From contig MHAF01000111.1 in the NCBI GenBank assembly GCA_001802865.1, forward strand, positions 1-32,247: a DNA stretch of 32,247 bases. Reading direction: 5' to 3'. The notes beneath the pieces are model-generated. The model searched no databases, was not told the origin of the DNA, and was given only the letters and a program-made list of their open reading frames with translations. Positions 2,858 to 22,123 of this stretch are shown here, in pieces. Made by a program: the position numbers and the translations under genes. Source of the DNA: Ignavibacteria bacterium RBG_16_34_14 (GTDB lineage Bacteria; Bacteroidota; Ignavibacteria; Ignavibacteriales; Ignavibacteriaceae). Numbering within the stretch: position 1 is the first letter of the stretch; each line of letters begins with the position of its first letter.

Positions 2858-4234
2858 ATGGGTAACATGTCAAAAAATGCAAAAATACTTGTTTGTGATG
2901 ATGACGAAACATTGTGTTATTTGTTAAAGGAACAGCTCTTAGAAGAAGGTTTCGGTGTTGATGCTGTCTATGATGGAAGTTTCGCCATAGATGCTGTAAA
3001 AAAGAAACATTACGATGTCTTACTTCTTGATTTAAATATGAAAGAAACTTCAGGAGAGGAAGTTTTAAAATTTGTATCCGAGTTTAATACTTCTCTCCAG
3101 GTTGTTATTCTTACTGCACAATCTGAAATAAGAAAAGCTATTGATTGCATTAAGATGGGAGCCTATGATTTTATAACCAAACCTTATAATTTTGATGAGC
3201 TGGTTCTTGCCGTAAACCGGGCTATTGAACATAAAGACCTGCTTGTAAAAACAACTATTCTTTCAAACCAGATAAATAAAAAATCTGCCAGCAACATTAT
3301 TGGCGAAAGCCTTGAACTTCACAGGGTTATTAATCTTGCCAACAAAGCAGCAATGTCCGATTCAAATATTCTTGTTGAAGGTGAAACCGGAACAGGGAAA
3401 GAATTATTAGCTGAATATATCCATAAACATTCCGCACGCGAAGATAAACCATTTGTTGTTATCAACTGCGCTTCGCTTCCTGATCAATTAATTGAAAGCG
3501 AACTTTTCGGACATGAAAAAGGCGCTTTTACCGATGCAAAAAATACTAAGCAAGGTCTTGTTGAAATTGCTCATGGAGGAACATTGTTCCTTGATGAGAT
3601 TGGAGAGCTAAGTTTATCATTACAGCCAAAGCTGTTAAGATTTCTTGAGAACGGAGAGTATAGAAGAATCGGCGGTGTAACAAGCCTAACATCAAATGTA
3701 AGAGTAATCGGGGCAACAAATAAAAATCTTATTGAAGAAGCTGATAATAAAAATTTCAGAAAAGATCTTTTATTCAGAATGAATGTAATAACTCTTACAA
3801 TTCCTCCTTTAAGAGACAGAAGGGGGGATATCCTTCTTCTTGCAAATCATTTCCTTGAAACCAAATCCCCAATCAGGTCACCGAAAAAACTATCACAAAA
3901 AGCCGAAGAAGCATTATTATCATATTCATTTAATGGCAATATCAGGGAGCTTGAACATATAATCGAGCGCGCAATTATTTTTGCTGAAGGGGAATTTATC
4001 CAGCCTGACGATTTAAGCCTCCCGATTGTTGGCTCACAAGGCAGGGCATCCCATATCTACGAAGACAATGGAAGTTCTGAGGAAATTATAAGCATGGAAG
4101 AAGTTGAGAAGAGACATATAGCAAGAGCACTTAGTTATTATAAGTGGGATAGAGCACAAACTGCAACAAGGCTTGGAATAAGCCCCAAGACTCTTTATAC
4201 TAAGATCAAGAAGTACGAGATCAGACAAGAATAA
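2858..4234 (+). CDS. NtrC-family sigma-54-dependent response regulator (REC-AAA+-HTH)
   Basis: This is a 458-residue bacterial enhancer-binding protein. The receiver domain (about 8-122) has the acidic pocket CDDDE and phospho-acceptor Asp58 (LLLDLNMK). The AAA+ domain (about 148-380) has Walker A GETGTGKE, the sigma-54 contact loop GAFTDA (the classical form is GAFTGA), Walker B GGTLFLDEIGE and the arginine-finger region FRKDLLFRMNV. The C-terminal Fis-type helix-turn-helix reads ATRLGISPKTLYTKIKKY. It should bind upstream sites and drive open-complex formation by sigma-54 RNA polymerase once phosphorylated. The hybrid kinase follows 8 nt downstream and is its likely partner. An in-frame ATG at 2867 is an equally possible start, because neither has a clear ribosome site. 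Confidence 0.93.
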   Translation: MGNMSKNAKILVCDDDETLCYLLKEQLLEEGFGVDAVYDGSFAIDAVKKKHYDVLLLDLNMKETSGEEVLKFVSEFNTSLQVVILTAQSEIRKAIDCIKMGAYDFITKPYNFDELVLAVNRAIEHKDLLVKTTILSNQINKKSASNIIGESLELHRVINLANKAAMSDSNILVEGETGTGKELLAEYIHKHSAREDKPFVVINCASLPDQLIESELFGHEKGAFTDAKNTKQGLVEIAHGGTLFLDEIGELSLSLQPKLLRFLENGEYRRIGGVTSLTSNVRVIGATNKNLIEEADNKNFRKDLLFRMNVITLTIPPLRDRRGDILLLANHFLETKSPIRSPKKLSQKAEEALLSYSFNGNIRELEHIIERAIIFAEGEFIQPDDLSLPIVGSQGRASHIYEDNGSSEEIISMEEVEKRHIARALSYYKWDRAQTATRLGISPKTLYTKIKKYEIRQE

Positions 4235-4242
4235 AAGATTTC

Positions 4243-6219
4243 ATGGTTGATAAAATCATATCTAAATATGCTCTCAAAGAGATACTTGAAAACGATAAAG
4301 ACTCCTTAGCTATAGCCGATAAGAATCTAAAAATCCTCTGGTTTAATAAAAACTTTAAAAAGAATTCGGGTATTGAAAGAATAAAAGGAAAGAGCCTTTC
4401 GAAACTTTTTCAATATTCAGAGATTGAATCCCTTCTATTTGATAAACCGGGATATTCATCAATAAAAATTCCCGGCTTAGATAATAAACTGCTGGTTACA
4501 CCTCTTAAAACAGACAAAAAGCTGGATGGTTATCTTTTAAAGCTCGAAGTAAAAAATAAATTTGTTGTTAAAGATAAAAAACCATCTAAAAACCATATAA
4601 TAAATTTTCAACAAGAATTCCATGAAATATTATCTGTGCTGGTTAAGGAAAAATCTTTTACAAAGATAACAGATGAGATACTAAAAAAGGCTACATCTTC
4701 GAGCAGAAGTCTATTTGGACTCCTCCTATTGATAGAAGATAAAAATAAATTTTCTTTTCATTATTATGATCCTGATAAATACATTGAAGCCCCTGATGAG
4801 ACCAGCCGCGGTTTAAAAGATAGCCTGAATTATATTCAAAGATGGCTTTCTATAAATAAAAAGGCTTTAGTCATTGAAAATGTTAGAGCCAATATTGGAT
4901 ATCATCTTACTGAAATATTTAATTGCAAATATTTAATTATTCTACCTTGTTTTTTTGAAGATACACTGATAGGAACAGTTATACTTGGCAGGAAGAATAA
5001 CAGCTACACAACGGAGGAAACAGCTATTCTCGAAAGGCTTGCATCGCTTCTAACTTTTTCTATTACAAGTTTTCGGACCCGCGAACTGAACTTAGCTCTT
5101 GAAAACAGATTATTGCAGGCACAAAAACTCGAAACAATTGGAAAACTCTCAAGCGGTATGGCTCATGATTTTAATAACTTACTCTCAAGTATTTTTGGAA
5201 GTCTTAACCTTCTGAAGAAGAGAGTTCCACAAAGTGAAAATGTAACCCGGCTTATTGATAACATTGAAAATTGCTCCATCCGTGCAAGAGATTTAACCAA
5301 GGGTCTTCTATCGTTTGGAAAGCCAACACCTAAGAGAAAAGAGTTAATAAAGTCTAACCTTTTATTGTCTGAGATAATAAAGGTTATCACTCAAACCTTC
5401 CCTAAAAAGGTTACTTTAAATTATGATATAAAAGAAAATTTATATGATTTGTTAGGCAACCCAACCGAAATTTACCAGGTACTATTAAATCTATCTGTTA
5501 ATGCCAAGGAAGCTATTGATGACAAGGGAGGTATTCTAACGATAAAGGCACGTAATATTACTGTTAGTAATAAAAACATCATAAACTATCCTCTTTTAAA
5601 TAAAGGAAACTATGTATGCTTTACAGTAAGAGACAACGGATCGGGGATAAGCGAGGATAACATTCAAAAAATATTTGATCCTTATTTTTCTACAAAAGAA
5701 AAGGAAACAGGTTCTGGTTTAGGGCTTTATGTATCCTATGGAATTATAAAAGCGCATAACGGGCATATTGATGTTACAAGCAACATAAATGAAGGAACCC
5801 AGTTTGATGTTTATCTCCCTTCTTATGAGCCAACCAAAGTTGATAAGGTTTCTCCTGCTGATAAATTAATACTTCTTGCTGATGATGAAATTATGCTGCG
5901 GGATCTTTTAGCTGAACTTCTCGAATCAAATGGTTATGCCGTCATTAGAGTAATTTCAGGAAAAGAAGCGCTGAAAGTTTTGACCGAAGAAATTAAAGTT
6001 GATCTTATAATACTCGATTATAATATGCCCGAAATGAATGGACTGGATTGTGTTGCTGAGATCAGAAAATTTAATAAAGAAGTTCCTATACTTCTTTCAT
6101 CTGGAAGTCTTGGACTGAACGGACAGACCATTGATATGAAAAAAATGGGAATTAATAGCTTTGTTAATAAACCATATGAGTTTGATATAATGCTCGCTAC
6201 AATCCAGGAATTAGTGTGA
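4243..6219 (+). CDS. Soluble PAS-GAF hybrid histidine kinase with C-terminal receiver
   Basis: This 658-residue kinase has no membrane segment. Order: a weak PAS-like domain (about 8-95), a GAF domain (about 130-275), a short helix, a DHp domain with phospho-accepting His308 in MAHDFNNLLSSI, and an HATPase domain (about 400-515; N box NLSVNAKEAIDD, G boxes DNGSGISED and GSGLGLYV). A receiver (about 540-655) follows, with Asp592 in ILDYNMPEMNG. The HDFNN H-box is typical of NtrB-like or HisKA kinases that pair with NtrC proteins, which fits the upstream gene. GAF and PAS suggest a cytosolic ligand or redox input. Its last nine bases overlap the end of the convergent receiver-DHp gene at 6211-6219, so no terminator fits between them. 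Confidence 0.92.
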   Translation: MVDKIISKYALKEILENDKDSLAIADKNLKILWFNKNFKKNSGIERIKGKSLSKLFQYSEIESLLFDKPGYSSIKIPGLDNKLLVTPLKTDKKLDGYLLKLEVKNKFVVKDKKPSKNHIINFQQEFHEILSVLVKEKSFTKITDEILKKATSSSRSLFGLLLLIEDKNKFSFHYYDPDKYIEAPDETSRGLKDSLNYIQRWLSINKKALVIENVRANIGYHLTEIFNCKYLIILPCFFEDTLIGTVILGRKNNSYTTEETAILERLASLLTFSITSFRTRELNLALENRLLQAQKLETIGKLSSGMAHDFNNLLSSIFGSLNLLKKRVPQSENVTRLIDNIENCSIRARDLTKGLLSFGKPTPKRKELIKSNLLLSEIIKVITQTFPKKVTLNYDIKENLYDLLGNPTEIYQVLLNLSVNAKEAIDDKGGILTIKARNITVSNKNIINYPLLNKGNYVCFTVRDNGSGISEDNIQKIFDPYFSTKEKETGSGLGLYVSYGIIKAHNGHIDVTSNINEGTQFDVYLPSYEPTKVDKVSPADKLILLADDEIMLRDLLAELLESNGYAVIRVISGKEALKVLTEEIKVDLIILDYNMPEMNGLDCVAEIRKFNKEVPILLSSGSLGLNGQTIDMKKMGINSFVNKPYEFDIMLATIQELV

Positions 6220-6891
6220 AGTTTCTGTCTTTTCCTTATCAACATCAATCATTTTAATATCTTTAACATAATCAGAGAATACGGGCTTCTTTATTGAATT
6301 CAACTGGTTCAGCACATCACTTATTTCTTTAATTGCTGCATCAATATAATTAAGTCTCTTCATAACGGCTTCCCTGGAAATTACTTCTTTATTTATCTCT
6401 CTTTTAAGAGCCGCCGAAGAGAGGCTCATAAGGGTGAGCGGCTGTTTTATTTTATGGTTAGCTGTAACGACAGTTGCAGCAAAAGTATTTTTCTGTTCTG
6501 CTTCAAGATATTTTTTTTGAGCTTCGGAAAGTTTTAGAGCTGAATAAACCCTTGCAAGAAGCTCAACCTTATTGAAAGGCTTTTTAATATAATCGAATGC
6601 CCCCGCTTCAAGACCTTCCTTTGTATCTTCGGCCCCGGATTTTGCGGTTACAAGTATTATAGGAATGTTGACTGTTGAAGGATTGTTCACAAGTGTTTTG
6701 CAAACTTCAATGCCGTTCATTTCAGGCATCATAACATCAAGCAGAATTAAATCCGGCAGTTCACTAATAGCTTTGTTGATTCCTGATTTTCCACCATAGG
6801 CAGTTAATATTTCAAAGCCTTCGGTCTCAAGCCTGTCCTGCAGAAGGAATACATTTTCAGGTAAATCATCTATAACAAGTATTCTTTTCAA
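6211..6891 (-). CDS. Receiver-DHp protein lacking a kinase ATPase domain
   Basis: The protein has 226 residues. Residues 1-120 are a full receiver (Asp8/Asp9 pocket, phospho-acceptor Asp52 in LLDVMMPEMNG, Thr82, Lys104). A helical linker (about 120-138) leads to a dimerisation/phosphotransfer-like helix pair at about 138-200. The H-box-like sequence ANHKIKQPLTLM places His146 where kinases carry their phospho-histidine. The frame then ends without any N or G box, so it cannot autophosphorylate by itself. It may be a phosphotransfer relay, a substrate of another kinase, or a regulator of one by heterodimerisation. It is the last gene of the pilus operon, 1 nt after the triple-receiver kinase. 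Confidence 0.85.
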   Translation of the reverse strand: MKRILVIDDLPENVFLLQDRLETEGFEILTAYGGKSGINKAISELPDLILLDVMMPEMNGIEVCKTLVNNPSTVNIPIILVTAKSGAEDTKEGLEAGAFDYIKKPFNKVELLARVYSALKLSEAQKKYLEAEQKNTFAATVVTANHKIKQPLTLMSLSSAALKREINKEVISREAVMKRLNYIDAAIKEISDVLNQLNSIKKPVFSDYVKDIKMIDVDKEKTETSH

Positions 6892-6892
6892 T

Positions 6893-9800
6893 TTAACTTA
6901 ATCCGATTTTAGTGAATAGTTTTTCAATTTTAAATGCCAAAGTAACCGCATTAACTGGTTTTTGTATATAATCGTTAAAGCCATGTTTTAAAATGATTTC
7001 ACGATCGCCGACCATTGCTTTTGCGGTTACAGCAAACACTGGAATATCTGCCCACTCAGAGTTTTCTTTTATTTTCTTTAAAGTTTGAAACCCATCCATA
7101 CCCGGCATCATTATGTCAAGCAGGATGAGATCTGGAGTTTCATTTTCTAATAATTCAAGAGATTCTTGGCCACTATTTGCAAGCATCGTCTTGCAACCGC
7201 AGGATTGTACAATTTCATTTACTGTAAATAACGTGTCTTCATCATCATCTACTAATAAAACCGTACCTTTATATTCAGTTTCATCTTTTTGATCATCGGG
7301 TTGCAAAATAGCATTCTGTGATTCTTCTTCAGTTTCTTCTTCAATAATTTTATGTTCATTTACTATTTCAGTCATCATTGAGTATTCTTCATGTATCCTA
7401 ATTCTGTCACGAACTATTTTAAGAACATCCAACGGGTGACCTTTTGATTTAACAGTTATCTCTTCAACGGTATTATGCAGTGAAGATTTTTCTTCTTCGC
7501 TTAGATCTTTTGCTGTACTTATAATTATAGGTATGTGCCGTGTTTCCTTACTTGATTTTAATTTATGAGATAAACTGATACCATCAATATTAGGCATTAA
7601 CAGATCAAGAATAATTAAATCCGGTTGTATCTCTAAAATTTTAATGTAAGCAAGCCGACTGTCTTTTATATATTCAATTCTTACTTTATCATTTTTAAAA
7701 GCACTTTTGAATTTTTCAAATTCCATTTCATCATCATCAATAAGAACTATCTTCTCAATTCTCTTCTTAGCCATATTTTCAAGTTTTGCAAATGCAGATA
7801 AAAGTTTCTCTGATGAAATCGGTTTTACAAAATATTCAAACGCACCAAGGCCATATCCAAGATTTTTATCTCCTATTACTGAAATAAGAATAACAGGAAT
7901 ATCCCGTGTTGCAGGATTTTCTTTAAATTCTTTCAGTATGTTCCAGCCATCTTTTTTAGGAAGCATTACATCGAGTGTAACTGCAAAAGGCTGCAGCTTA
8001 ACTGCTTTCTCCAATCCCTGCTCTCCATCTTCAGCATAAGCAACTTCATACCCCCTTGAAATTAAATATTGTCCGATCGTATATCTTATTTCAGGATCAT
8101 CATCAATTATCAGGATAGGATGTTTCCTATTTTTAAGAAGAGTTTCAATATTTACTTTTTGATCTTCAGGTTTTTCAGCACGGATTTCTAAAACTTTTAA
8201 AGGAATACTGAATGAAAATGTAGAACCTTTTCCAATCTCACTTTGTACTGATATTGACCCATTCAGCATATCTGCAATTTTCTTGCAGATTGTTAAACCC
8301 AAACCGGAACCGCCATATTTCCTTGTAGTAGTTCCATCTATCTGCCGGAATTCTTCAAATATTATCTGCAGGTCGCTTTGAGACATTCCTATTCCGCTAT
8401 CAACAATGTCAAACTTTAATGCATCACTGTCAGGTGCAGATATAATTAATTCAACCTGACCTTTCTCTGTAAACTTAACCGCATTGCTAAGAAGATTAAT
8501 TAATACCTGTGTTATCCTTCCTTTGTCTGTACTAATTTGAATATGAGTATTAATTTTTTTAGTTAATTTAAATTCGATGTTTTTATTTAGAGTTAATGGA
8601 GTAATAGCATTTTCAACATCATCAATTAATTCATCAAGCAAAAGCTGTTCTTCCCGGATTTCCATCTTACCTGCTTCAATTTTGCTGAGATCAAGAATAT
8701 CATTTATAAGGTTCATTAATCTTTTGCCGCTTTTTAAAACAACTTCAAGGCGTTCTTTATTTTTTCCTTTGAGAGAACTGCTTTCAAGAATTAATTCAGA
8801 TAAACCCAGAATAGAATTCATCGGAGTTCTTAATTCATGCGACATATTGGCTAAGAACTGAGATTTCATATGTGTTGATTCTTCTGCTCGTTCTTTCTGA
8901 ATGGCAAGTTCATCGGCTTTTTCCTTAAGTTCTTTATGAAGCTCCACAAGCTTTTCATTCTGTTTTGTTATCTGCTCATTCTGTTTCTGATATTCATTAT
9001 TTAATCTTTTTAATTCTGAAACAAAATTCTCCAGTTGAACAAGAGCAGTTGCATTCGTTAAACCAATTGCAAGCTGTTCCTGGATGTTTGAAAGATATTC
9101 TCTTGCTTCCGGGGTTGGTTTATCAAATCCGCCCAGTTCAAGCACAGCGATTACTTTACCATTATATAATACCGGGACAATCAGAAGAGACCTGATTTCT
9201 ATTGAAAGCATGCCTGTATTAATAACCGGAAGATTACCTCCCGAATTTATTTCAATAGTCTCATGATTTTTTATAACAGGTTCGAAAAATTCTGATTTGT
9301 AGTTTGTATATTCTTCTTTTAGGCCGTAAGAACTTAAAAGAGAGATTTCTTCTTTATCTACAAGATAAAGTGCCCCAACTAAAAGATTGCTGGTTTTAAT
9401 AATTTTTCGAAGAGTCGCTTCAGATATCTCTTTTAAAGTCGGATTCTGATTTATGAGCGTAATAAACTCAGAATATTCATGCTTTGATTTATTATTCCTT
9501 TCAAGGTCATCGAGCATATTGTTAAAGGCCTTTGCCAGTTCACCAATTTCATCTTTACTTTTTATACTAATCCTGTTTTTAAAATTGCCTCCCTTTGTTA
9601 TTTCAGCAGCTCGGCTTAATTGTGTAAGCTGTTTTCTTATTTTATCAGTGAAAATAAAAGTAAGTATAAGGGAAAGAAGAACTCCGGCAATTCCTAGTAT
9701 AGCAAGCATTGATTTAAGGCTCGACCTGAGGTCCGCTGCTTCACCTAAGGTATTAAATATAAGAAACTCTATCCCGCTGTTTATTTCGGAAACATTTGAA

Positions 9801-10438
9801 TCCTTAAAAATTGTTGCTACTAAATCGGCTTTATCCGAGGTTTCTGTAAAAAGCTCAAAATTCTTTTTTGATTTTAATTCTTTATAAGCCTCTGCAAGAT
9901 TAAAAATAAAATTTTGGTTGTTATCCTTGTTTGATATTTCAAAAGGGGAGTCATTCAATATTACTGCAATTTCAGCATTTATCTTTTTCGATAGCTTATT
10001 AAGAAACTCATTTGATAAAAGACGACCGTAATAATAAACTCTTCCGTTCTCATCAACATATTTTTTAATAACAGCATGAGGATTATTTTTAATGAACTCT
10101 TCCGTAGAAAAATTATTTTGGGAGAGGTAAATACTTTCCCCGGAAAATTCTTTTGAAAGTTTATTTTTGCTTACTTCCCTGAAAACAAAATCAATGTTTT
10201 GTGGATTTTGGAGAGTAATAGAAACAGAGCCTTTAATATAATGCTGAAATTCATCTTCCGTATCCTGCAGCATTTCCCGGTAGGAATAAATAAAGTCGTT
10301 TGCAGACCTTATAAGGTACTGGGATCTTTGCGAAGTTAAAGTGTTGTACATTATTGAATAGAATGCAAAGGCAGAACTTGCAATAATAAGAACAACTATA
10401 GCAAAGTTGATTAACAGAATACGATATCTGATTTTCAT
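6893..10438 (-). CDS. Membrane hybrid histidine kinase with HAMP, GAF and three receivers
   Basis: This is a very large sensor kinase of 1181 residues. TM1 is at about 7-29, followed by an extracytoplasmic sensor of roughly 210 residues and TM2 at about 240-263. Then come HAMP (about 263-316), GAF (about 330-472), and a coiled coil rich in Gln/Lys/Glu (about 475-525). The DHp domain carries His534 (NMSHELRTPMNS), and the HATPase domain spans about 635-745 (NLLSNAVKFT, DSGIGMS, GGSGLGLT). Three receivers follow, with phospho-acceptors Asp823, Asp945 and Asp1108. The extracytoplasmic part has no motif I can name. It starts 2 nt after the upstream response regulator stop, inside the type IV pilus operon, so its likely job is to tune pilus assembly or the motor through the flanking receiver proteins. 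Confidence 0.93.
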   Translation of the reverse strand: MKIRYRILLINFAIVVLIIASSAFAFYSIMYNTLTSQRSQYLIRSANDFIYSYREMLQDTEDEFQHYIKGSVSITLQNPQNIDFVFREVSKNKLSKEFSGESIYLSQNNFSTEEFIKNNPHAVIKKYVDENGRVYYYGRLLSNEFLNKLSKKINAEIAVILNDSPFEISNKDNNQNFIFNLAEAYKELKSKKNFELFTETSDKADLVATIFKDSNVSEINSGIEFLIFNTLGEAADLRSSLKSMLAILGIAGVLLSLILTFIFTDKIRKQLTQLSRAAEITKGGNFKNRISIKSKDEIGELAKAFNNMLDDLERNNKSKHEYSEFITLINQNPTLKEISEATLRKIIKTSNLLVGALYLVDKEEISLLSSYGLKEEYTNYKSEFFEPVIKNHETIEINSGGNLPVINTGMLSIEIRSLLIVPVLYNGKVIAVLELGGFDKPTPEAREYLSNIQEQLAIGLTNATALVQLENFVSELKRLNNEYQKQNEQITKQNEKLVELHKELKEKADELAIQKERAEESTHMKSQFLANMSHELRTPMNSILGLSELILESSSLKGKNKERLEVVLKSGKRLMNLINDILDLSKIEAGKMEIREEQLLLDELIDDVENAITPLTLNKNIEFKLTKKINTHIQISTDKGRITQVLINLLSNAVKFTEKGQVELIISAPDSDALKFDIVDSGIGMSQSDLQIIFEEFRQIDGTTTRKYGGSGLGLTICKKIADMLNGSISVQSEIGKGSTFSFSIPLKVLEIRAEKPEDQKVNIETLLKNRKHPILIIDDDPEIRYTIGQYLISRGYEVAYAEDGEQGLEKAVKLQPFAVTLDVMLPKKDGWNILKEFKENPATRDIPVILISVIGDKNLGYGLGAFEYFVKPISSEKLLSAFAKLENMAKKRIEKIVLIDDDEMEFEKFKSAFKNDKVRIEYIKDSRLAYIKILEIQPDLIILDLLMPNIDGISLSHKLKSSKETRHIPIIISTAKDLSEEEKSSLHNTVEEITVKSKGHPLDVLKIVRDRIRIHEEYSMMTEIVNEHKIIEEETEEESQNAILQPDDQKDETEYKGTVLLVDDDEDTLFTVNEIVQSCGCKTMLANSGQESLELLENETPDLILLDIMMPGMDGFQTLKKIKENSEWADIPVFAVTAKAMVGDREIILKHGFNDYIQKPVNAVTLAFKIEKLFTKIGLS

Positions 10439-10440
10439 AC

Positions 10441-10806
10441 CTACGTATCTCTTTGCAAAACTTTTCTGATTGTAATAAGCAGTTCATCAAAGTCATAAGG
10501 TTTACTGATAAAATCATTAGCCCCCATTTTAGCTGAATCAATTGCACTTTTAACATCTGCATAAGCAGTTAATACAATTATTTTCGATTTTATACTTTGT
10601 TCATTTAATTCCCTGAGAACATCAAACCCATCTTTCCCGGGCATCTTAAGGTCCAGGAGCAGTAGATCAACATTGTTCCCTGAGAGATAATGAAAAGCAT
10701 CATCTCCGTTGTTAACATAATCAACATTGTAGCCTACTTCCAGTAATTCATCTTTAAGCGCTGTACACAGGCTAATATCATCATCCACAATAAGTATTGA
10801 TTCCAT
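10441..10806 (-). CDS. Single-domain CheY-like response regulator
   Basis: This 121-residue protein is only a receiver. Asp8-Asp10 form the acidic pocket, Asp52 (LLLDLKMPGKDG) is the phospho-acceptor, Thr80 lies in VLTAY, and the Lys of ISKPYDFDE is at about 103. The sequence resembles receivers of NtrC-type regulators (SAKMGANDFISKPYDFDELL). No output domain follows, so it must act by protein contact or as a relay, as PilG or CheY do. It starts 6 nt after the secretin stop and ends 2 nt before the hybrid kinase, which makes translational coupling likely. Confidence 0.93.
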   Translation of the reverse strand: MESILIVDDDISLCTALKDELLEVGYNVDYVNNGDDAFHYLSGNNVDLLLLDLKMPGKDGFDVLRELNEQSIKSKIIVLTAYADVKSAIDSAKMGANDFISKPYDFDELLITIRKVLQRDT

Positions 10807-10812
10807 ATTCCA

Positions 10813-12048
10813 CTATTTATCATATTGTTTTTCGTTAAGCTGATAGAATTTTATTTTCTGTTTATGATTTTCAACTTCATTTTTTATCAAATTCTCAGAT
10901 GTTGAAGTAGAAGAAAGTCTTTCCTTAAGTGTAGGAAGTATTCCTACTTCTAAAAGAATTACAAGTTCTTTTTTCCGTGTAATATTCTGGTCGCTTCCAA
11001 AAACGTAACGCAGACCAAAGAACCACCAGGGAAGATCTTTAAGAAAAGGAATTCCTGTACGAACGACACTTTCCTCATTTACAAAAAGACCACCAAGGAT
11101 CGCTTGTTCACCATTAAGCATTACAATCTGGGTCTCTGCACTTGTTTTCCTGATTTCAGTAGTTGTTTCACTCTGAACAAAGGAGCTTCTTTCTACAAGT
11201 ATATCGAGAAGAGTATAATTAACATTATCTTCCTCATAGATGTATGGCGTAACCTCTATTATTGTACCCGTGGGGAAGAATTTCTCAATAACGTTTCCTG
11301 CAAAGTCTCTTTGCTTTACAGAGAAGTCCGAACCAACTTGTATCCTTCCTTTATTTCTGTCTCTTACAATTATATTAGGGCTGGCAATAATTTCTCCTAT
11401 GTTTTCTTCTTCAAAGAATTTAAACATTGCTGTGGCCTCACCATAAAATTGTCCAAGATCAAATTTCGAGGATGAATTTAATTTAAAGTCCGGAGGATTC
11501 TGGGTTGTACCTGTACCACCCTCTAAGTTTGGGGATGGATCGCTTATTATTTCTCCTCCAACTGATAATCCATCTTTAGATAATAAAACTTTCCAGTCAA
11601 TGCCTCTGTTCCTGGCTTCATTAACATCCATTTCAAAAAAGACCGCAGATATCTTTATATCTCTTGAATCAATAGAAGCATATGTTTCAGGCGTTCTGTT
11701 AAGAGAAGGATCATCCTTCCTTTTAATAATAATTATATCTTCCTTCTCTTCCAGGGTAAGGTTATGATACTGGACCAGCACAATTAAAGCCTTATCGTAA
11801 GCCATGTTGCTTATCTCTATGCCTATCGGCTGATCGGACTGAACTGTAGAAACGATTCTTCTTCCGGTAGTGCTTTCACTTATTTTACTTAAAAGCTCTA
11901 CCGCCTGATCGAATTTTACATTAGCTGAAAGAGAAACTAATTCATCGGGATTTGTAAAGCCTTTAAATTCTTTTTCAAGATATTCCTGTGGAAAAGACTG
12001 TACCGCAAGAAGCAAAAGAACGAAAAATATTTTAAGTGTTGTTTTCAT
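10813..12048 (-). CDS. pilQ: Short type IV pilus/T2SS secretin (PilQ/GspD-like)
   Basis: I chose the ATG at 12046-12048. It has a GAGAG ribosome site 7 nt upstream and gives a clean signal peptide (MKTTLKIFFVLLLLAVQSFP). An in-frame ATG at 12064-12066 overlaps the previous stop but would add only six polar residues. The mature protein has a small N-terminal STN/N0-like domain (about 30-125). The secretin core follows (about 140-380): SAVFFEMDVNEARNRGIDWK, ASPNIIVRDRNKGRIQVG, VMLNGEQAILGGLF and GIPFLKDLPWWFFGLRYVFG. At ~411 residues it is much shorter than typical PilQ (~600-700); the AMIN domains and stacked N1 repeats are missing. It should form the outer-membrane pore for the pilus. Confidence 0.87.
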   Translation of the reverse strand: MKTTLKIFFVLLLLAVQSFPQEYLEKEFKGFTNPDELVSLSANVKFDQAVELLSKISESTTGRRIVSTVQSDQPIGIEISNMAYDKALIVLVQYHNLTLEEKEDIIIIKRKDDPSLNRTPETYASIDSRDIKISAVFFEMDVNEARNRGIDWKVLLSKDGLSVGGEIISDPSPNLEGGTGTTQNPPDFKLNSSSKFDLGQFYGEATAMFKFFEEENIGEIIASPNIIVRDRNKGRIQVGSDFSVKQRDFAGNVIEKFFPTGTIIEVTPYIYEEDNVNYTLLDILVERSSFVQSETTTEIRKTSAETQIVMLNGEQAILGGLFVNEESVVRTGIPFLKDLPWWFFGLRYVFGSDQNITRKKELVILLEVGILPTLKERLSSTSTSENLIKNEVENHKQKIKFYQLNEKQYDK

Positions 12049-12062
12049 TTTTACTCTCTCAA

Positions 12063-12947
12063 TCATTTATTTGGTTTTTCTTTTTCAAGTTCGAGTTCAA
12101 CTTTCTCAATAATACCGCCTTTGTTAAGAATAAAGCTTACTCTGTTTCTTTCATAATCTATCTTAGTTAGGTATCCAAGGTATACTGGTTCACCTTCCCA
12201 AACTAAGTATGTATTGCCTTTACCATCAGAAAGGAAAGCCCCTTCGGGAATGAGAGCCAGTAGTTTAGCTCCTTGTACATCCAGAAGCTCATCATAATTA
12301 GGTGGGATTTCATTCCTGATAATCGGGTAGAAAGCATCATATACAGGATTTGTAGTAAGATTGTTTTCTACTAATGAAGCAGTTACAAAACGATCTGTTG
12401 AAGAAAAATAAGTCCCTGCAGTCAAAGTAAATCCAACCAGGAAGTTTGGAATTCCATCTTTGTCGTTTGCTACAAGGTTTCCTAAAGATAAGCCTGTTAT
12501 TTTCTTTAATTCTTTACTCTGTTCAATTGAATAAATAAGACTGAAGAGGTCATTATATGATGCTCTTCCGCTTAATTTGTATTCATGGTAAAAGAATTCC
12601 TTGTCCTGCTTCTGTTCCAGATATTCAACATCAACCTGAGATAGCGGCGAGTAAGGTATACTTACATTATTAATAAAGTTATAAAACTTTATTGAAGACA
12701 AGTCTTTAGGAATATTAAACTTTCTTGCTGCGAGAATTGAATCCAGCACGGAAGATCTTTTTAAAAGACCTTGATACTGAACAGTAAGCTGTTCGGTGTT
12801 GTATTCGTTAGCTTTTAACTCTTCGAGTTTAGCTCTTTTTTCGTTCAGTTTACTGCGCTGAAAGAAAAATACATACACGCCACTGATAAAAACTATCAGC
12901 ATCAGTAAACCTACTAGACCAAGGGTGCTTCTTAATTTCTTGTTCAT
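12063..12947 (-). CDS. pilO: PilO-like inner-membrane platform protein with PilP-like C-terminal domain
   Basis: The protein has 294 residues. A short cytoplasmic start is followed by one TM helix (about 10-29) and a coiled coil (about 30-70). The ferredoxin-like periplasmic PilO/GspM region is at about 85-180, including GRASYNDLFSLIYSIEQSKEL. After a linker, the last ~75 residues (LLALIPEGAFLSDGKGNTYL through VSFILNKGGIIEKVELELE) look like the small beta domain of PilP/GspC that contacts the secretin. That makes it a probable PilO-PilP fusion linking inner membrane to outer-membrane channel. Its ATG overlaps the PilM-PilN stop by ATGA (12944-12947), and the secretin follows at once. The PilP assignment rests on position and pattern only. 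Confidence 0.75.
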   Translation of the reverse strand: MNKKLRSTLGLVGLLMLIVFISGVYVFFFQRSKLNEKRAKLEELKANEYNTEQLTVQYQGLLKRSSVLDSILAARKFNIPKDLSSIKFYNFINNVSIPYSPLSQVDVEYLEQKQDKEFFYHEYKLSGRASYNDLFSLIYSIEQSKELKKITGLSLGNLVANDKDGIPNFLVGFTLTAGTYFSSTDRFVTASLVENNLTTNPVYDAFYPIIRNEIPPNYDELLDVQGAKLLALIPEGAFLSDGKGNTYLVWEGEPVYLGYLTKIDYERNRVSFILNKGGIIEKVELELEKEKPNK

Positions 12948-14488
12948 TGTATTACATTCTTTTGATAGTTTGATAAATCAAATGTTATAAGGAACTTGTA
13001 AGTGTTTTGCTCCCTAAGAGCTTCATAACTTACACTTTTAAGAATTGCAGATTCAATAGAATATGCAAATTCGGTAAGTACATTCCTGTTGAGAGCATAA
13101 CCTTCTATTGTAACTTTACCTTCAGCAAAATTCAGTTTTGTTATCCACATGCTGTTTTTGCTTCCGACAAAGTCTGATACATGTTTTAATACCTGCTGCC
13201 AGACTCCAGTACCTGCCGATGCAGAGTCAAGAATAGTTTGTGTCTGATCAAAACCGGAAATTTTTGTTTCGATCTCTGCTATCTTTGTTAGTATTTCCTG
13301 ATTTTGTCTCATCAGGATAGTTTGTTCCGCAATCTGGTTATCAAGCTGATTAATCTCTTTCTGGTTTTCGAGTATATACTGAGTTGCAAAAAAAGTTATA
13401 CCAAACAATAGGGGCAGCATTGCATAACCATGCCAGCCAAACTGAAAGAATTTCTGATCTTCTTTTACATACTTTGGTAAAAGATTTACTCCTTTATGTA
13501 AATTTTCAAGCTCATCATAATAGTCGGTGGCAATAGCTACAGGTACGCTGAAGGCTGAAAACTTATCTTTTTCTTCAGGTGTTAATCCACCCAGGTCAAC
13601 ATCGCTGAATTCCAAGCGGGAAACGTTAGCTTCGGGAAATGTTCCATAAAAGGAGAGAATAAGATTTTCAGAATCATCTTCACCACAAACAATTATATTA
13701 TCTAATGAAGAGATTCCGCCATTTTCCATTTCAAGTAATATTTTAGAGAAATAAACATCATATGTATGAAGATTAAGTGTACCAATATCTAATGTCGCTC
13801 CAACATGTTTTAATTTACGGCCTTGCAAAAAAATCAGCTTGCTGTATTCTTTTCCTATATATACTATTAATGACTGATCATCGGGGAAAAACTTTTTGGT
13901 TTTAGCCACATAATAGGCAAGTGAAATTTCGGCACTTTTCACAGAAGGTATTTTAAAATGCCGCTTGCCATGAAAACGGGCTAATGAGTTGATCATATTT
14001 ATACAGGCAACTTCACCGCCAAGGAATACGGATAGAAGAGACTTATCAGCAAGCTCAACATATCCAAGATTTTGCTTTTCTACAGCAATATTTTTCGATT
14101 CCTGTATATCATCTATTATATCATCCGCTACTTTTGCTGAAGCAAGTTGCTTTGAACCTTCGTAGATATGGTAATGAAGTGCGGGTTCGGTTAATGCAGG
14201 AATGAATAAACTTTTCTTAAGATTAATTCCTGCTAAATTATTGGCAAGAGTTGTAACAGTAGAGGCCGCCATTTTGCTGTCAAGTGAAGTATCCTGGCTC
14301 TGAATCTTTTCTAAATCCAAGTCGGTACCTTCAATACTAAGATTTGAGATTCCTTCTTCAAGGTCTATGGTTGGCTGGACAAAATCAACAGCTGCCGTTT
14401 TAAGAACCATAAGCTTACCATTGACCTTTGATACTACAGCTACTTTGGTATCATTGCCTTCAAAATAAATACATATTAAGGGTTTCAT
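12944..14488 (-). CDS. pilM: PilM-PilN fusion protein
   Basis: The protein has 514 residues. The first ~320 are a divergent actin-like PilM domain (phosphate-1-like LICIYFEGNDTKVAVV, then SLIVYIGKEYSKLIFLQGRK, HVGATLDIGT and a late IIVCGEDD). A TM helix follows at about 352-372 (GYAMLPLLFGITFFATQYIL), then a coiled coil (about 373-410). The C-terminal part matches PilN/GspL (WQQVLKHVSDFVGSKNSMWI, then TIEGYALNRNVLTEFAYSIE). In most bacteria cytosolic PilM and membrane PilN are separate and bind through the PilN N-terminal peptide; here one chain covers both, as in GspL of type II secretion. It starts 2 nt after the PilT stop and overlaps the next gene by 4 nt. Confidence 0.82.
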   Translation of the reverse strand: MKPLICIYFEGNDTKVAVVSKVNGKLMVLKTAAVDFVQPTIDLEEGISNLSIEGTDLDLEKIQSQDTSLDSKMAASTVTTLANNLAGINLKKSLFIPALTEPALHYHIYEGSKQLASAKVADDIIDDIQESKNIAVEKQNLGYVELADKSLLSVFLGGEVACINMINSLARFHGKRHFKIPSVKSAEISLAYYVAKTKKFFPDDQSLIVYIGKEYSKLIFLQGRKLKHVGATLDIGTLNLHTYDVYFSKILLEMENGGISSLDNIIVCGEDDSENLILSFYGTFPEANVSRLEFSDVDLGGLTPEEKDKFSAFSVPVAIATDYYDELENLHKGVNLLPKYVKEDQKFFQFGWHGYAMLPLLFGITFFATQYILENQKEINQLDNQIAEQTILMRQNQEILTKIAEIETKISGFDQTQTILDSASAGTGVWQQVLKHVSDFVGSKNSMWITKLNFAEGKVTIEGYALNRNVLTEFAYSIESAILKSVSYEALREQNTYKFLITFDLSNYQKNVIQ

Positions 14489-14490
14489 TT

Positions 14491-15720
14491 TTATGCCGCC
14501 GTTAATAGTTGTTGAATTCTGGTTTTATTGTTTGCATAAGCAACCGCGTTTTCCAATGAAATTTTATTTTCGAGGTATAAACGTTTTAAATCCTGTTCCA
14601 TTGTTATCATACCCATATTACCCCCCTGGTTAATCATCATATAAATTTCACTTGTGTTATTATTTTTTATTGCTGCCTTAACACTTGGGGTAGCAATCAA
14701 AACTTCCTTTGCCATAATAATTTTCCCATCCGAACTCGGAATAAGCTTCTGAGAAACAACTGTAACCAACACATCAGCTAACCTGTTCCTTACGCGTTCC
14801 TGTTCATGGGGATTAACTTCTGCTATAATTCTGTCTATAGATTCTGTTGCTGATGATGTGTGAAGTGTTGAAAAAACCTTATGACCAGTATCAGTTACTT
14901 CGAGAGCAGCCATAATTGTATCAGGGTCTCTCATTTCACCAATTACAATTATATCGGGGTCCTGTCTTAATGCCTGGATAACACCATCTTTAAAAGTAAG
15001 TACATCGCGTCCCACTTCCCTGTGCCTCACAATGGATACTTTTGACAGATGGACATACTCTATCGGCGCAGCTACAATAACTATATGGCAGGGATCAAAA
15101 TTATTATGGAAGTCAATAAACGAATCAAGTGTTGTTGATTTACCCGAGCCCGTTATACCGGTAACAAGTGATAGTCCGAATTTAATGTAATTGTGGCTCA
15201 TCATCTTAACTACATTAGGATGAAAACCAAGCGATTTAAGTGGTCTGATTGCCTGGTTAATAGCTCTCATATTAAGAGCCAAGGTATCAAGATCGTAATA
15301 CGCATCTGCTCTGAATCTTACATCAATATTTCTTCTATCATAAAAGTAGGTATAGCTGAAATCAAGGTTCCTGGTAAGTACAAGATATTTTCTCTGGTTT
15401 GAATTGAGCAGATTAATTATAAGTGCGGCCGATTCATCAAGAGTAAAAGTAGGAAGATCTTCTATCCTGTGTTTCTTACCATAAATTCTCATCCAGATTG
15501 CTGCTGTATTTCCATGTCCTCCAATTTCAATATCTGAAGCATCTCTTTCTATCATGCTTGTTAAAAATTTATTGAATAGGATTCTTAAAGATATTCTCTC
15601 CTCGGAAGTCAACTTTTCAATATTTTCTAAAATGTAATTAACCCTCTCGGGCCCGTAAAAAGCCGGTGGGATTGTTTTAGCGAACTTTTCCAGAATAGTT
15701 TTTTCTTTCGTGACTGCCAA
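14491..15720 (-). CDS. pilT: PilT/PilU-like pilus motor ATPase with altered Asp box
   Basis: This 409-residue secretion ATPase has an N-terminal PAS-like domain with RDASDIEIGG (about 58-67). The core carries Walker A GITGSGKSTT (Gly188-Lys194), Walker B VIGEMRDPDT with Glu262, and His box HTSSATESIDRIIAEVNP. Segments VSQKLIP and AIKNNNTSEIYMMINQG match PilT rather than PilB, and the tetracysteine motif of PilB is absent. The Asp box, normally TIEDPIE, reads VAAPIEYVH: Ala217-Ala218 replace the acidic pair. The following KVSIVRHREVGRD is normal. The protein may be a PilU-like accessory motor or a low-activity retraction ATPase. A 68-nt gap separates it from pilB. Confidence 0.88.
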   Translation of the reverse strand: MAVTKEKTILEKFAKTIPPAFYGPERVNYILENIEKLTSEERISLRILFNKFLTSMIERDASDIEIGGHGNTAAIWMRIYGKKHRIEDLPTFTLDESAALIINLLNSNQRKYLVLTRNLDFSYTYFYDRRNIDVRFRADAYYDLDTLALNMRAINQAIRPLKSLGFHPNVVKMMSHNYIKFGLSLVTGITGSGKSTTLDSFIDFHNNFDPCHIVIVAAPIEYVHLSKVSIVRHREVGRDVLTFKDGVIQALRQDPDIIVIGEMRDPDTIMAALEVTDTGHKVFSTLHTSSATESIDRIIAEVNPHEQERVRNRLADVLVTVVSQKLIPSSDGKIIMAKEVLIATPSVKAAIKNNNTSEIYMMINQGGNMGMITMEQDLKRLYLENKISLENAVAYANNKTRIQQLLTAA

Positions 15721-15788: not shown

Positions 15789-17579
15789 TTACTCATCGGA
15801 TGTTCCGGATATTACTTCTTCAAATGATGTAATTCCCATTTTTACCTTTTCTATTCCTGAATCCCTTAGCATTAACATACCATCTGCTTTAGCTTGTGCT
15901 CTGATCTTTTCTTCATCAACTTCAATACCAGAACGAACTATTATCTGACGTATTTCTTTTGTAAAGTAGAGTGACTCATGAATGGCAATTCTACCTTTAA
16001 AGCCAGTATTATTGCACTTTTCACAACCTTTAGCTTCATAAAAAGGATTACTTTTCCATTCATCTACTTTAAGATTAAGATGCTCAACAATAGCCTCGTC
16101 AATTTTATTTAATTTCTTTTTACAGTTATCGCATAATCGCCTGATCAATCTCTGGGCAACAATAATATTAATTGCATAAGCGATAAGGAAAGGTTCTATA
16201 CCCATTTTATAAAGACGTGCAACTGCACTTGGCGCATCGTTAGTATGTAATGTTGAAAAAGTTAAGTGACCGGTGTTCGCAAGCTTAATTGCAACTTCAG
16301 CAGTTTCTTTATCTCTCATCTCACCAACAAGTACTATATCAGGATCGTGACGAAGTATTGATCTGATAGCCTGTTCAAATCCCATTTTATATCCTATCTT
16401 TAACTGCCGGGCACCATTGATTACATACTCAACAGGATCTTCAACTGTAAGTACGTTTACAGTTGGATCAATAACCTGGCAAAGGGCTGCAACAAGAGTT
16501 GTACTTTTTCCACTTCCTGTTGGCCCGGTCAATATCACCATTCCCTGAGGCTGTTTTATCGCTTTCTCAAATGCTTTGCGTGCATAACCCGCTAAGCCAA
16601 GTTTATCGAGATCTTTAATTACTTTTCTATCATCAAGAATTCTTATTACAACGCTTTCAAATTTATTTTTTAATTCAGTTCCCACTGTAGGTAAAACCGA
16701 AACTCTGAACCTTATAACCTGACCATCAATTTCTCTCTGTATAAAACCATCCTGAGCCATTTCTCTTTCAAAACGGTCCATTCCTTTTGAGCGATCTTTA
16801 ACTACGGCTACAACAGCTTCTGGTAGGGTTCCATCCTGAATATGCCAGGGTTGAAGATTGCCATCAATTCTAATTAAAATTTCTGTTCTGTTTCCCGGTT
16901 TAGGAACAAAATGAATGTCACTTGCACCTTTTCTTACTCCTTCAACAAGTGCACCTTCAACAAGATTTATAAGAGCACTTTTATTTATTTCTGCATCGAG
17001 AGCCTCTTCATCAAAAGATTCATCACGCTCAATATGCATTTCTGTATTTTCTGCTTCCTCCATCATCTTTAAGAATACGTTTTCAGGAGGAATAATTGTA
17101 TTAACTAACTTTTCATACTCCTTATTTCTTATAAAAAGGACTTCATACTTTTTTGCATTTAACCCGAATGCAATCTTTGGAATATTTCTATCTGTCGGGT
17201 CAACTGCTGCAAGAATTAATTTATCTTTTATCCTTTCATCAAACATGAAGGGTAAAACTTTATGTTCAAGCATCTGCTGCTTAAGACCTTCAGAAGAGTT
17301 TGTAACTAATTGTTTTAGAGCGTTTATTTTTTGAGGGGAAATTTCTTCAATCGCAACATCCAGTTCACGGAAAGCATAAAGAATTGCAACTTCCCTGAAG
17401 ATCTGGTCGTGATCATACCCAAACTCCTGAACAAGGATCTGCGCAAGGTTTCTTTTAATCTTGCTTTTGTCATTATTTTTTGCTTGTAATGCTTTATCCA
17501 GCATTACGCCATCAATTATTCCTTTTTTAAAAAGGAGATACCCGATTTTGTCGGTCATTTCAAGATTGGTCTCGATCAT
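15789..17579 (-). CDS. pilB: PilB/GspE-type assembly ATPase
   Basis: The protein has 596 residues, close to the PilB length. The N-terminal domain (about 8-150; IGYLLFKKGIIDGVMLDKAL) is of the T2SSE_N/MshEN type. The central domain begins near 205 (VRKGASDIHFVPKPGNRTEI). Walker A GPTGSGKSTTL lies near 350, the intact Asp box is LTVEDPVEYVINGARQ, Walker B is VGEMRDKETAE, and the His box is STLHTNDAPSAVARLYKMG. The zinc tetracysteine is Cys483/Cys486 and Cys519/Cys522. All catalytic signatures are present, unlike in the neighbouring PilT. It drives pilin polymerisation at the PilC platform. Confidence 0.93.
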   Translation of the reverse strand: MIETNLEMTDKIGYLLFKKGIIDGVMLDKALQAKNNDKSKIKRNLAQILVQEFGYDHDQIFREVAILYAFRELDVAIEEISPQKINALKQLVTNSSEGLKQQMLEHKVLPFMFDERIKDKLILAAVDPTDRNIPKIAFGLNAKKYEVLFIRNKEYEKLVNTIIPPENVFLKMMEEAENTEMHIERDESFDEEALDAEINKSALINLVEGALVEGVRKGASDIHFVPKPGNRTEILIRIDGNLQPWHIQDGTLPEAVVAVVKDRSKGMDRFEREMAQDGFIQREIDGQVIRFRVSVLPTVGTELKNKFESVVIRILDDRKVIKDLDKLGLAGYARKAFEKAIKQPQGMVILTGPTGSGKSTTLVAALCQVIDPTVNVLTVEDPVEYVINGARQLKIGYKMGFEQAIRSILRHDPDIVLVGEMRDKETAEVAIKLANTGHLTFSTLHTNDAPSAVARLYKMGIEPFLIAYAINIIVAQRLIRRLCDNCKKKLNKIDEAIVEHLNLKVDEWKSNPFYEAKGCEKCNNTGFKGRIAIHESLYFTKEIRQIIVRSGIEVDEEKIRAQAKADGMLMLRDSGIEKVKMGITSFEEVISGTSDE

Positions 17580-17685: not shown

Positions 17686-19059
17686 TCAAGTTATGTTTTT
17701 CTCCACGTAAATCTGATTTGATGCGCCTGGTGTTTTGGGCCGTACGGTTGCTGTTTCTGCAGACACAAGTGTCAATGCAATCATTACAACCATAATTACC
17801 ATTGCTATAGAGATCTGAACGAATTCAATAAAGTTTTTCAGTTTATAAACCGTTTCGCTTTCATAATAGTTTGCAAGCTGCAAGCTTGTATTTTTTAATG
17901 TACCGGTTTCCTCCCCTGAGTGAAGTCTTGAGAGAGCTGTTTCTGTAAAAACACCTGAAGCTGTAAATGCATCAGTGACACCTACACCTCGTTTTATCAT
18001 TAAAGGTATAGCAATGTTTTTAACTCTTTCCTCGAAGTACCTGTTACCTGTTGCTTCTGCCGCTATTCTGATAGGCTCTATGCTTTCCGCCGAACCACTA
18101 TAAAGGGTATAAAATACACGGCAGTAAACTTCTATTAATGTTTTATGAATCAGCGAACCAAGTACAGGAATTTTTAGAATATGTTTATCAATTATATAAC
18201 CACCTTTTTTTGTGAGAGCTAAACGCCATAATACAATGGGGGGCAATAATGTTAATGCCGCAACAAGAATAGAATTCTCAATAAGAAAATCACTCATGGC
18301 AAGTGTAAACGCTGTCATTGGAGGAAGGTCAATTCCGAACTTAACAAAAAGTTTCGCTGTTTCGGGAAATATATATCCCACATAAAAAAGTACAGCAAGA
18401 AAGAGAACAAATAATGTAACTGCAGGAGTTATAAGAGCGCTTCTTAAATTCTTTCTAAATTCCTGTTTTCTCTCAAGGAACTTGGCCGTGGCCCTGTAAA
18501 TCTCTGTCATATTACCACTCTTTGAGGCTAACCCTAACATATATGCAGTAAATTTTCCAAAAATATTTTGATATTTTAAGAATGTGGTTTCGCTGTCTGC
18601 ACCTTTTTTAAGATCATTATTAATTTCTTTTAAAGTTTCCTTAAGGGTTTTATTCTCGGTGTCATTAATAAGAAGAGTAAGGATTTCCCCATAAGGAAGC
18701 TTTTGTTCAAGAAGCTCAGCGCTTATTTTAACATAAGTTACAAGGTCGGCCTGGGGAATTTTGCGTTGAAAATCAAATAACTTTTTATTAATTGAAAGTA
18801 CCTCAAAACCAAGTTTACTTAGAGCATCTTCAACTTCTTTTTTTGAATAAGCTTTTTGTTCACCCTTAACCGGTTTTTCCTTTCCTTTGCGGGCTCTGTA
18901 AACGAAAGTAGCTTTTTTCTCAATCGTATTTATCTTTAACTGGTTTTTTTCCGCCAGACGATAAATCTTCTTTTTACCTTCAGTGATTGTACTGGCAGAG
19001 AGAGAGCCGCTTATACTTTGCCCGTTTACTTTTTTTGCAGTGAACTTAAATTCAACCAT
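17686..19059 (-). CDS. pilC: PilC/GspF-type inner-membrane platform protein
   Basis: This 457-residue polytopic protein has two T2SSF domains. The first (about 105-230) ends in TM ITPAVTLFVLFLAVLFYVGY with the GYIFPETAKLFVKFG motif. A second hydrophobic segment is near 255-280. The second T2SSF domain (about 300-425) carries FYTLYSGSAESIEPIRIAAE and RLHSGEETGTLKNTSLQLAN, followed by the final TM (ISIAMVIMVVMIALTLV). An N-terminal cytoplasmic extension of ~100 residues precedes domain one. PilC is the platform on which PilB acts. It is the first machinery gene after the pilin terminator, with 350 nt of non-coding sequence upstream, so it probably has its own promoter. Confidence 0.92.
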   Translation of the reverse strand: MVEFKFTAKKVNGQSISGSLSASTITEGKKKIYRLAEKNQLKINTIEKKATFVYRARKGKEKPVKGEQKAYSKKEVEDALSKLGFEVLSINKKLFDFQRKIPQADLVTYVKISAELLEQKLPYGEILTLLINDTENKTLKETLKEINNDLKKGADSETTFLKYQNIFGKFTAYMLGLASKSGNMTEIYRATAKFLERKQEFRKNLRSALITPAVTLFVLFLAVLFYVGYIFPETAKLFVKFGIDLPPMTAFTLAMSDFLIENSILVAALTLLPPIVLWRLALTKKGGYIIDKHILKIPVLGSLIHKTLIEVYCRVFYTLYSGSAESIEPIRIAAEATGNRYFEERVKNIAIPLMIKRGVGVTDAFTASGVFTETALSRLHSGEETGTLKNTSLQLANYYESETVYKLKNFIEFVQISIAMVIMVVMIALTLVSAETATVRPKTPGASNQIYVEKNIT

Positions 19060-19409: not shown

Positions 19410-19811
19410 TTATCTTACTTGAGTTACAGTAATGCTGGTTGGTGATACAACCGCCTGATGCTGAATATTCTGCCCAGCATCATTTTTTTCCGTACCTGTA
19501 CCAGTAATTGTAACTGACTGAGCGGTAAGTGCGGCAGAATAATTACCATTAGCTGTAGTATCGAGCTGTGAAGGTATTTCCCATCCATTACCAATGGGAC
19601 CGCCAGTATTAAAGGTGTTACTTCCACCACCCATAGATCCTGGTTTCTTATAATGCTGTTGTGCCATCGCACCGAGGTTATTTAAGTCGGATACTACGCC
19701 ATCTCTGTTTGAAGAAACAGCATTAGCATTGAACAAGTTGATACCAACAACTACGGCGATACCTACTACGATAACGCCAAGTACGATTAAGAGAAGCTGT
19801 TGTTGACCCAT
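19410..19811 (-). CDS. Pilin-like protein with ultra-short leader, copy 2 (probable major subunit)
   Basis: The protein has 133 residues. It begins MGQQQLLLIVLGVIVVGIAV, a hydrophobic helix that starts almost at the N-terminus. Gly2 would be the prepilin-peptidase -1 residue. No Glu is at +5. The rest is a small Gly/Thr/Ser-rich globular head with YKKPGSMGGG and VTITGTGTE, both shared with the upstream paralog. A strong ribosome site (AAAGGAG) precedes the ATG and a strong terminator follows, as expected for an abundant structural subunit. It lies in the same orientation as and close to the pilus machinery. A non-pilin single-pass protein is possible, but context and N-terminus favour pilin. 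Confidence 0.75.
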   Translation of the reverse strand: MGQQQLLLIVLGVIVVGIAVVVGINLFNANAVSSNRDGVVSDLNNLGAMAQQHYKKPGSMGGGSNTFNTGGPIGNGWEIPSQLDTTANGNYSAALTAQSVTITGTGTEKNDAGQNIQHQAVVSPTSITVTQVR

Positions 19812-21502: not shown

Positions 21503-21511
21503 GAGGAACAA

Positions 21512-22111: not shown

Positions 22112-22123
22112 GGAGCCAAAATA

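Follow-up and report, generated by a model that had tools for sequence, protein, structure and literature searches.

Candidate phosphorelay genes linked to the operon of a type IVa-like pilus across the order Ignavibacteriales

Here we describe a set of regulatory genes that continue a pilus operon in a stretch of 32,247 nucleotides (the window) from Ignavibacteria bacterium RBG_16_34_14; the window is part of contig C111 of a draft genome of 2.74 Mb with 78.6% completeness. On balance, we favour the reading that these genes encode a multistep phosphorelay dedicated to a type IVa-like pilus, in which phosphate would pass from a hybrid kinase (HHK), through the third of its receivers (REC3), to a receiver-DHp protein (RRdhp) and on to a CheY-like protein and/or an NtrC-type activator, with a second hybrid kinase (HK2) as input. 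Because the block is conserved across the order, the pilus probably has its own control circuit, kept in the order as a whole.

On the minus strand the genes run pilC, pilB, pilT, pilMN, PilO-like, secretin, CheY-like, HHK and RRdhp. The PilQ-like secretin (10813..12066, minus strand), the last gene of the machine before the relay, matched Pfam Secretin at 87.5 bits and scored 88.9 bits against TIGR02515 PilQ, under the cut-off of 284.35. It is followed on the same strand by the CheY-like protein (10441..10806), a single receiver (Pfam Response_reg) of NtrC-type receiver sequence and the candidate terminal output; by HHK (6893..10438), with a transmembrane segment, a CACHE-like domain, a second transmembrane segment, HAMP, GAF, HisKA (H534), HATPase and receivers REC1 to REC3 (phosphoacceptors D823, D945 and D1108); and by the 226-residue RRdhp (6211..6891), a receiver (D52) joined by a long helix to a DHp hairpin (H146). 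The start codon of RRdhp is TTG, as against an ATG in this position in most relatives. Gaps of 6, 2 and 1 nt separate secretin, CheY, HHK and RRdhp, and HHK has 1181 residues, exactly as an earlier note on this DNA had stated; its tally of five receivers, two DHp domains (one clear, one degenerate) and one ATPase also agreed with Pfam. The genes it listed for the module are all there, but the block is longer, since two plus-strand genes converging on RRdhp had been overlooked. These are HK2 (4243..6219), with a weak GAF, HisKA (H308), HATPase and a receiver (D592), and the NtrC-type sigma-54 activator (2858..4234), with a receiver (D58), an AAA+ domain with GAFTDA and a Fis-type helix-turn-helix (HTH). 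HK2 and RRdhp overlap tail to tail by 9 nt (6211-6219), an overlap kept exactly in many relatives. No minus-strand terminator-like site lay in the intergenic gaps from secretin to RRdhp, those listed falling inside reading frames, which agrees with a single transcript but is no proof of one.

In the proposed relay, the CACHE-like domain of HHK would sense a signal outside the inner membrane and H534 would be autophosphorylated. The phosphoryl group would then move from H534 to D1108 of REC3, REC1 and REC2 being either regulatory or in decay, and from REC3 to H146 of RRdhp, which would serve as a phosphotransferase devoid of ATPase and whose own receiver may gate the step. From RRdhp it would reach the CheY-like protein, acting on the pilus motors or platform, and/or the NtrC-type activator, switching sigma-54 pilin promoters. 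HK2, a His-Asp hybrid, would provide a second input either to RRdhp or directly to NtrC. The weakest links of this scheme, as drawn from sequence, are the choices of partner, including the receiver that RRdhp would serve. We advance more tentatively a fully branched version, in which RRdhp would be the hub between the two hybrid kinases and would feed both CheY (the machine) and NtrC (the pilin genes), as the built-in controller of a leaderless-pilin, peptidase-free pilus throughout the order.

The secretin was found in 129 of the 146 genomes of the order, from which 60 loci were picked for long contigs and spread. Downstream genes were counted in the 57 loci with at least 7,000 bases beyond the secretin (L057, L060 and L061 were excluded), and domains were called by profiles seeded from the proteins of the window in two search rounds, a procedure that undercounts weak HisKA domains. 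CheY stood directly after the secretin in 47/60 loci. HHK was intact in 53 of the 57 loci, RRdhp was present in 55, HK2 in 51 and NtrC in 52; HHK, RRdhp, HK2 and NtrC occurred together in 48/57, and all five genes including CheY in 37/57. In lineages having the linkage at near-zero gaps, HHK was mostly 33 to 63% identical to that of the window. The earlier note had named missing linkage in relatives, together with separate transcripts, as the outcome that would speak against its proposal; the synteny search found the linkage kept across the order.

Outside the order, we inspected 20 stretches surrounding relatives of pilMN, drawn from 19 of the 76 genomes with a match. In two loci of family f13 (L171 and L172), CheY, RRdhp, HK2 and NtrC occupied the corresponding position without HHK, and the module was absent from the other 18. 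Among those 18, a lone receiver was seen in L181 and L187 and a kinase distantly resembling HHK in L189. A second f13 pilus locus (L173) had different regulators, among them a kinase and a relative of NtrC. Going by presence and absence, CheY, RRdhp, HK2 and NtrC seem to form the older core, to which HHK was added or from which it was lost.

Pfam assigned HHK three receivers, HisKA, HATPase, HAMP and GAF. The predicted model of residues 1-330 (mean pLDDT 84) shows a long helix, an alpha/beta domain and then another long helix that continues into HAMP. The top PDB matches were integrative models holding receptor McpB and kinase WalK, followed by sensor-domain crystal structures from Campylobacter (Tlp3) and Helicobacter (TlpA), while TlpC and LuxQ ranked lower; TM-scores ranged from 0.26 to 0.51 at low identity (16 matches at E up to 0.001). 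The domain thus modelled is CACHE-like and is taken as extracytoplasmic. As to the extracytoplasmic signal of the earlier note, it is this predicted sensor domain that speaks for it.

The three receivers of HHK are not equal. In the alignment of 58 HHK rows, the phosphoacceptor His was present in 55 (the exceptions L053, L057 and L085 being truncated or broken), that is, in 55/55 complete kinases. The Asp, acidic pocket, Thr and Lys of REC3 were kept in 57/58 rows, L057 stopping at a contig end. The Asp position of REC1 was D in 33/58, N in 12/58 and a gap or another residue in 13/58, and that of REC2 was D in 40/58. Both REC1 and REC2 sat on long branches in family f2 in the receiver tree, and each of 11 HHK proteins with one or two receivers by profile count retained the one closest to REC3. 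Since its active site is kept throughout while REC1 and REC2 decay or vanish, REC3 probably serves as the relay step, and the other two appear dispensable; by analogy with the pseudo-receiver of ShkA, they may be regulatory. The five receivers in a row of the earlier note do exist, but as a description of the relay the phrase overstates the case: all five as relay steps was rejected, as the active sites of REC1 and REC2 are not conserved across the order.

In RRdhp, Pfam recognised one receiver. HATPase was absent by Pfam, and the chain stops at residue 226, which is 27 residues beyond the hairpin. In the AlphaFold2 model (mean pLDDT 84), the last receiver helix continues unbroken as helix 108-166, which carries His146 and is followed by helix 173-199; the predicted pair is the hairpin expected for half of a DHp four-helix bundle. 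D52, K104, H146, Q150 and P151 were present in 57/57 proteins, the His was also present in both f13 proteins, and the motif NH(K/E)IKQPLT was nearly invariant. Fold matches spanning more than the receiver included LvrB, a REC-HisKA-HATPase regulator. Outside the class, 22 relatives matched past the His; by profiles, 12 were REC-HisKA-HATPase proteins, nine did not return that full set and one (L121) was a REC-HisKA protein as short as RRdhp. Because 12 of these 22 carry the ATPase, RRdhp is probably related to kinases, having lost the ATPase but retained the His. An active kinase was rejected as a role for RRdhp, the ATPase domain being absent. The residue after the His was Lys in 31/31 proteins of family f1 and Glu in 23/24 of f2 and 2/2 of f3. 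An acid at this position is thought to help the autokinase attack on ATP and to be dispensable for transfer from aspartate, so its loss fits a carrier. We infer that RRdhp is a kinase-derived phosphotransferase that would work like Spo0B, ChpT and PhyT. A single Hpt match was found in this genome, inside a frame of 1143 residues, and no separate Hpt protein able to replace RRdhp was seen in this incomplete (78.6%) genome.

The remaining proteins were equally constant at their active sites: H308 and D592 of HK2 in 53/53 proteins; D52, T80 and K102 of CheY in 48/48; and the active-site residues, GAFTDA and HTH of NtrC in 53/53. Each receiver type formed one clade in the receiver tree, where the CheY, NtrC and HK2 receivers clustered (support 90/85) apart from those of RRdhp and HHK; the tree was built on few columns, and the branching order among CheY, NtrC and HK2 is left open. 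NtrC carries all the parts of a sigma-54 activator (receiver, AAA+ with GAFTDA, HTH), and a sigma-54 factor was present in 20 of the 21 genomes searched, including this one. Upstream of the first pilin, 7/29 regions had a sigma-54-like site scoring at least 14 of 16, as against an average of 0.05 in dinucleotide shuffles and 0 on the reverse strand; the shuffles had earlier preserved base content only and were repeated with dinucleotides kept. Three of the seven regions (L219, L222 and L224) belong to other orders, and the sigma-54 promoters may therefore predate the module. Judged from these sites, pilins are likely to be under transcriptional control in some relatives, whereas in this genome such control is no more than possible.

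Several observations weigh against the relay as proposed. HK2 could phosphorylate NtrC directly. CheY was missing in 13/24 loci of family f2, although in 0/34 of f1, and is therefore not an obligatory output; in the f2 loci lacking it (L066, L070, L071, L075-L082, L086 and L090) secretin and HHK were 26-273 nt apart. RRdhp was kept in a few loci where HHK was missing or broken (L089 and L085), and HHK was absent from the two f13 loci that carry the module (L171 and L172), so HHK is not the sole donor. In L085 (genome G001) a free REC3-like receiver of 151 residues stands in the place of HHK, and L089 (genome G020) has RRdhp without HHK. L070 and L090 had HHK and RRdhp but neither CheY, HK2 nor NtrC. 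That some lineages have lost CheY, HHK or HK2/NtrC suggests a circuit that tolerates rewiring. The REC1 and REC2 of the window itself retain their catalytic residues. The DHp of RRdhp scored under the Pfam cut-off (HisKA 20.6 bits vs 26.9), and its architecture is not unique, since the Acidobacteria contig L121 (833-1570) encodes a REC-HisKA protein of 245 residues without ATPase, possibly an independent case. Finally, the possible -24/-12 site of the window (20461..20476, minus strand) scored 12.0, with a perfect -24 heptamer and a poor -12 element, and a window-wide scan gave 4 sigma-54 matches vs 10.9 expected by chance, that is, fewer.

A rival reading would have two separate two-component systems, one of HHK with CheY/RRdhp for pilus activity and the other of HK2 and NtrC, an analogue of PilS/PilR, for pilin transcription, with RRdhp having no part in phosphorylating NtrC. 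HK2 and NtrC do form a two-gene unit of their own on the opposite strand, and both are gone from L069, L070, L085 and L090, where RRdhp is retained. We nevertheless consider this arrangement rather unlikely. HK2 is itself a hybrid, its receiver Asp being invariant (53/53), and the receiver of a hybrid kinase usually calls for a second phosphotransferase; moreover, RRdhp accompanies HK2 and NtrC in L171 and L172 where HHK is absent, and the receivers of CheY and NtrC are related.

The transfer role of RRdhp in the proposed relay could also be replaced by that of a phosphatase or scaffold, whose DHp dimer would dephosphorylate a bound receiver or hold a kinase. The invariant Gln at +4 of its His is in keeping with this, Gln serving water activation in CheZ; neither function, however, needs the His that is invariant in 57/57 proteins and in both f13 proteins, and the receiver site of RRdhp is invariant too, which makes such a role unlikely. 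Least probable of all, in our estimate a very remote prospect, is that the regulatory genes are passengers beside the pilus operon and control something else. Absence of the module from 18/20 pilus stretches of the class outside the order would suit passengers, but linkage throughout the order at near-zero gaps, the 33 to 63% identity of most HHK proteins to that of the window and the sigma-54-like sites preceding pilins argue otherwise.

The earlier note had further proposed that a non-chemosensory relay replaces the Chp system here. A non-chemosensory His-Asp module is indeed a fixed part of the pilus operon, but replacement of the chemosensory system in general found no support and was rejected as a rule, CheW being present in 116/142 genomes of the order. 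Relay and chemosensory parts thus appear usually to coexist in the order. CheW gave no match in this genome (78.6% complete) or in its genus sister G075, CheA and receptors not having been searched, and was not found in the near-complete genomes G006 and G025, which keep the relay. As the relay is kept in genomes where CheW was not found, it does not need CheW. Flagellar motility has been reported for Melioribacter roseus in the available part of its genome paper (PMC3534657).

The machine that the relay would serve has PilB, PilT, PilC and secretin, as in the type IVa pilus. The genes described next lie on the minus strand. The PilO-like protein (12063..12947), named from position only, gave no match in Pfam or NCBIfam; its gene is conserved at the same place in relatives. 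The PilMN-like protein (12944..14488) has a C-terminal PilN domain (PF05137) at 21.7 bits, just under the cut-off of 22.8; PilM- and PilN-like parts appear to be fused in this protein of 514 residues, the putative PilM part being named from its position, and relatives occur in 107/197 genomes of the class. Upstream of these lie a PilT-family retraction ATPase (14491..15720; TIGR01420, PilT/PilU family, 321.9 bits, cut-off 319.1), a PilB-type ATPase (15789..17579; PF00437, 339.8 bits) and a PilC-type inner membrane protein (17686..19059; PF00482, 101.2 bits), with two leaderless pilin-like proteins before pilC, MGQQQLLLIVLGVIVVG... (19410..19811) and a second one (19878..20261).

These two proteins open with MGQQQ or LGQQQ (the latter from a TTG codon) and enter the hydrophobic helix at once; in-frame stops lie five or six codons before their starts. 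Three further genes for pilin- or minor-pilin-like proteins, beginning MNTGQ, MGFSS and MNGKA, lie on the plus strand (21008-23347). All five proteins start at the hydrophobic helix or 2-4 residues before it and have no leader peptide, and in all five Gly immediately precedes the helix. The first pilin-like protein has relatives in 81/149 genomes of the class, nearly always aligned from residue 1; Pfam and NCBIfam assigned it no family, and its best PDB sequence match was Geopilin at E 0.42. Prepilin peptidase (PF01478) was found in 4/59 genomes of the order and 8/149 of the class, as against 12/14 control genomes; it was not found in this genome, nor in six single-contig genomes of the order. 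The prepilin leader and prepilin peptidase that are hallmarks of type IVa pili were thus not seen here. The genome paper of M. roseus, in its available part, lists pilA and pilD as missing (PMC3534657), and prepilin peptidase accompanies prepilins in every phylum listed except Nanoarchaeota in the accessible part of another paper (PMC4471445). We infer that the pilin does without leader cleavage, its Met at most being taken off by methionine aminopeptidase; a leaderless pilin would explain both the missing leader and the missing peptidase. A different, unrecognised peptidase is still conceivable, given the Gly directly in front of the helix in each of the five.

Most of what is known about how type IV pili are controlled comes from proteobacteria and cyanobacteria, and the present block would be a different circuit, fixed in the pilus operon throughout an order of which few members have been cultured. 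The proposed circuit makes predictions about the receiver in use and the His that carries the phosphate, and predicts two outputs for a single relay. The block also shows a multi-receiver kinase in which receivers other than the last are losing their active sites, and a kinase relative probably turned into a phosphate carrier through loss of its ATPase, and the pilus served appears to lack the peptidase usually considered obligatory for type IV pilins. Like the Pil-Chp system of Pseudomonas, the proposed circuit combines several receivers and a CheY-like protein with a retractable pilus, but this block has no CheA, CheW or receptor. As with PilS/PilR, a type IV pilus is linked here to a kinase together with a sigma-54 activator of NtrC type, and in some relatives sigma-54-like sites precede pilins; unlike there, HK2 is a hybrid with a C-terminal receiver, converging on a second relay with a putative phosphotransferase.

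Among regulators in which a receiver precedes a DHp domain, as in LvrB and other REC-HisKA-HATPase hybrids, RRdhp differs in ending after the DHp hairpin. In Caulobacter, TacA is an NtrC-type activator and ShpA a classical HPt. The ShkA-ShpA-TacA pathway, as described in the available part of the report (PMC7010744), comprises a hybrid kinase that contains a pseudo-receiver, as well as a phosphotransferase, and its output is TacA. The proposed relay resembles it in having a hybrid kinase, a phosphotransferase and an NtrC-type output; in that same part of the report ShpA is separate and no tie to a pilus operon appears, whereas here a receiver-DHp fusion lies in the pilus operon. Kinase-like phosphotransferases are known from ChpT (PMC3433190) and PhyT (PMC5898713), the latter taking phosphate from a single-domain receiver according to the accessible text. 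Like ChpT, Spo0B and PhyT, RRdhp would carry phosphate on a DHp-type His without using ATP; unlike ChpT and PhyT, which keep a degenerate ATPase-like domain in the portions available, it has none and adds an N-terminal receiver. A search of titles and openings of abstracts, with subscription journals mostly outside it, turned up no work describing a relay within this order's pilus operon. A four-step relay with an ATPase-less receiver-DHp carrier, tied to the pilus operon across the order, is a plausible mechanism.

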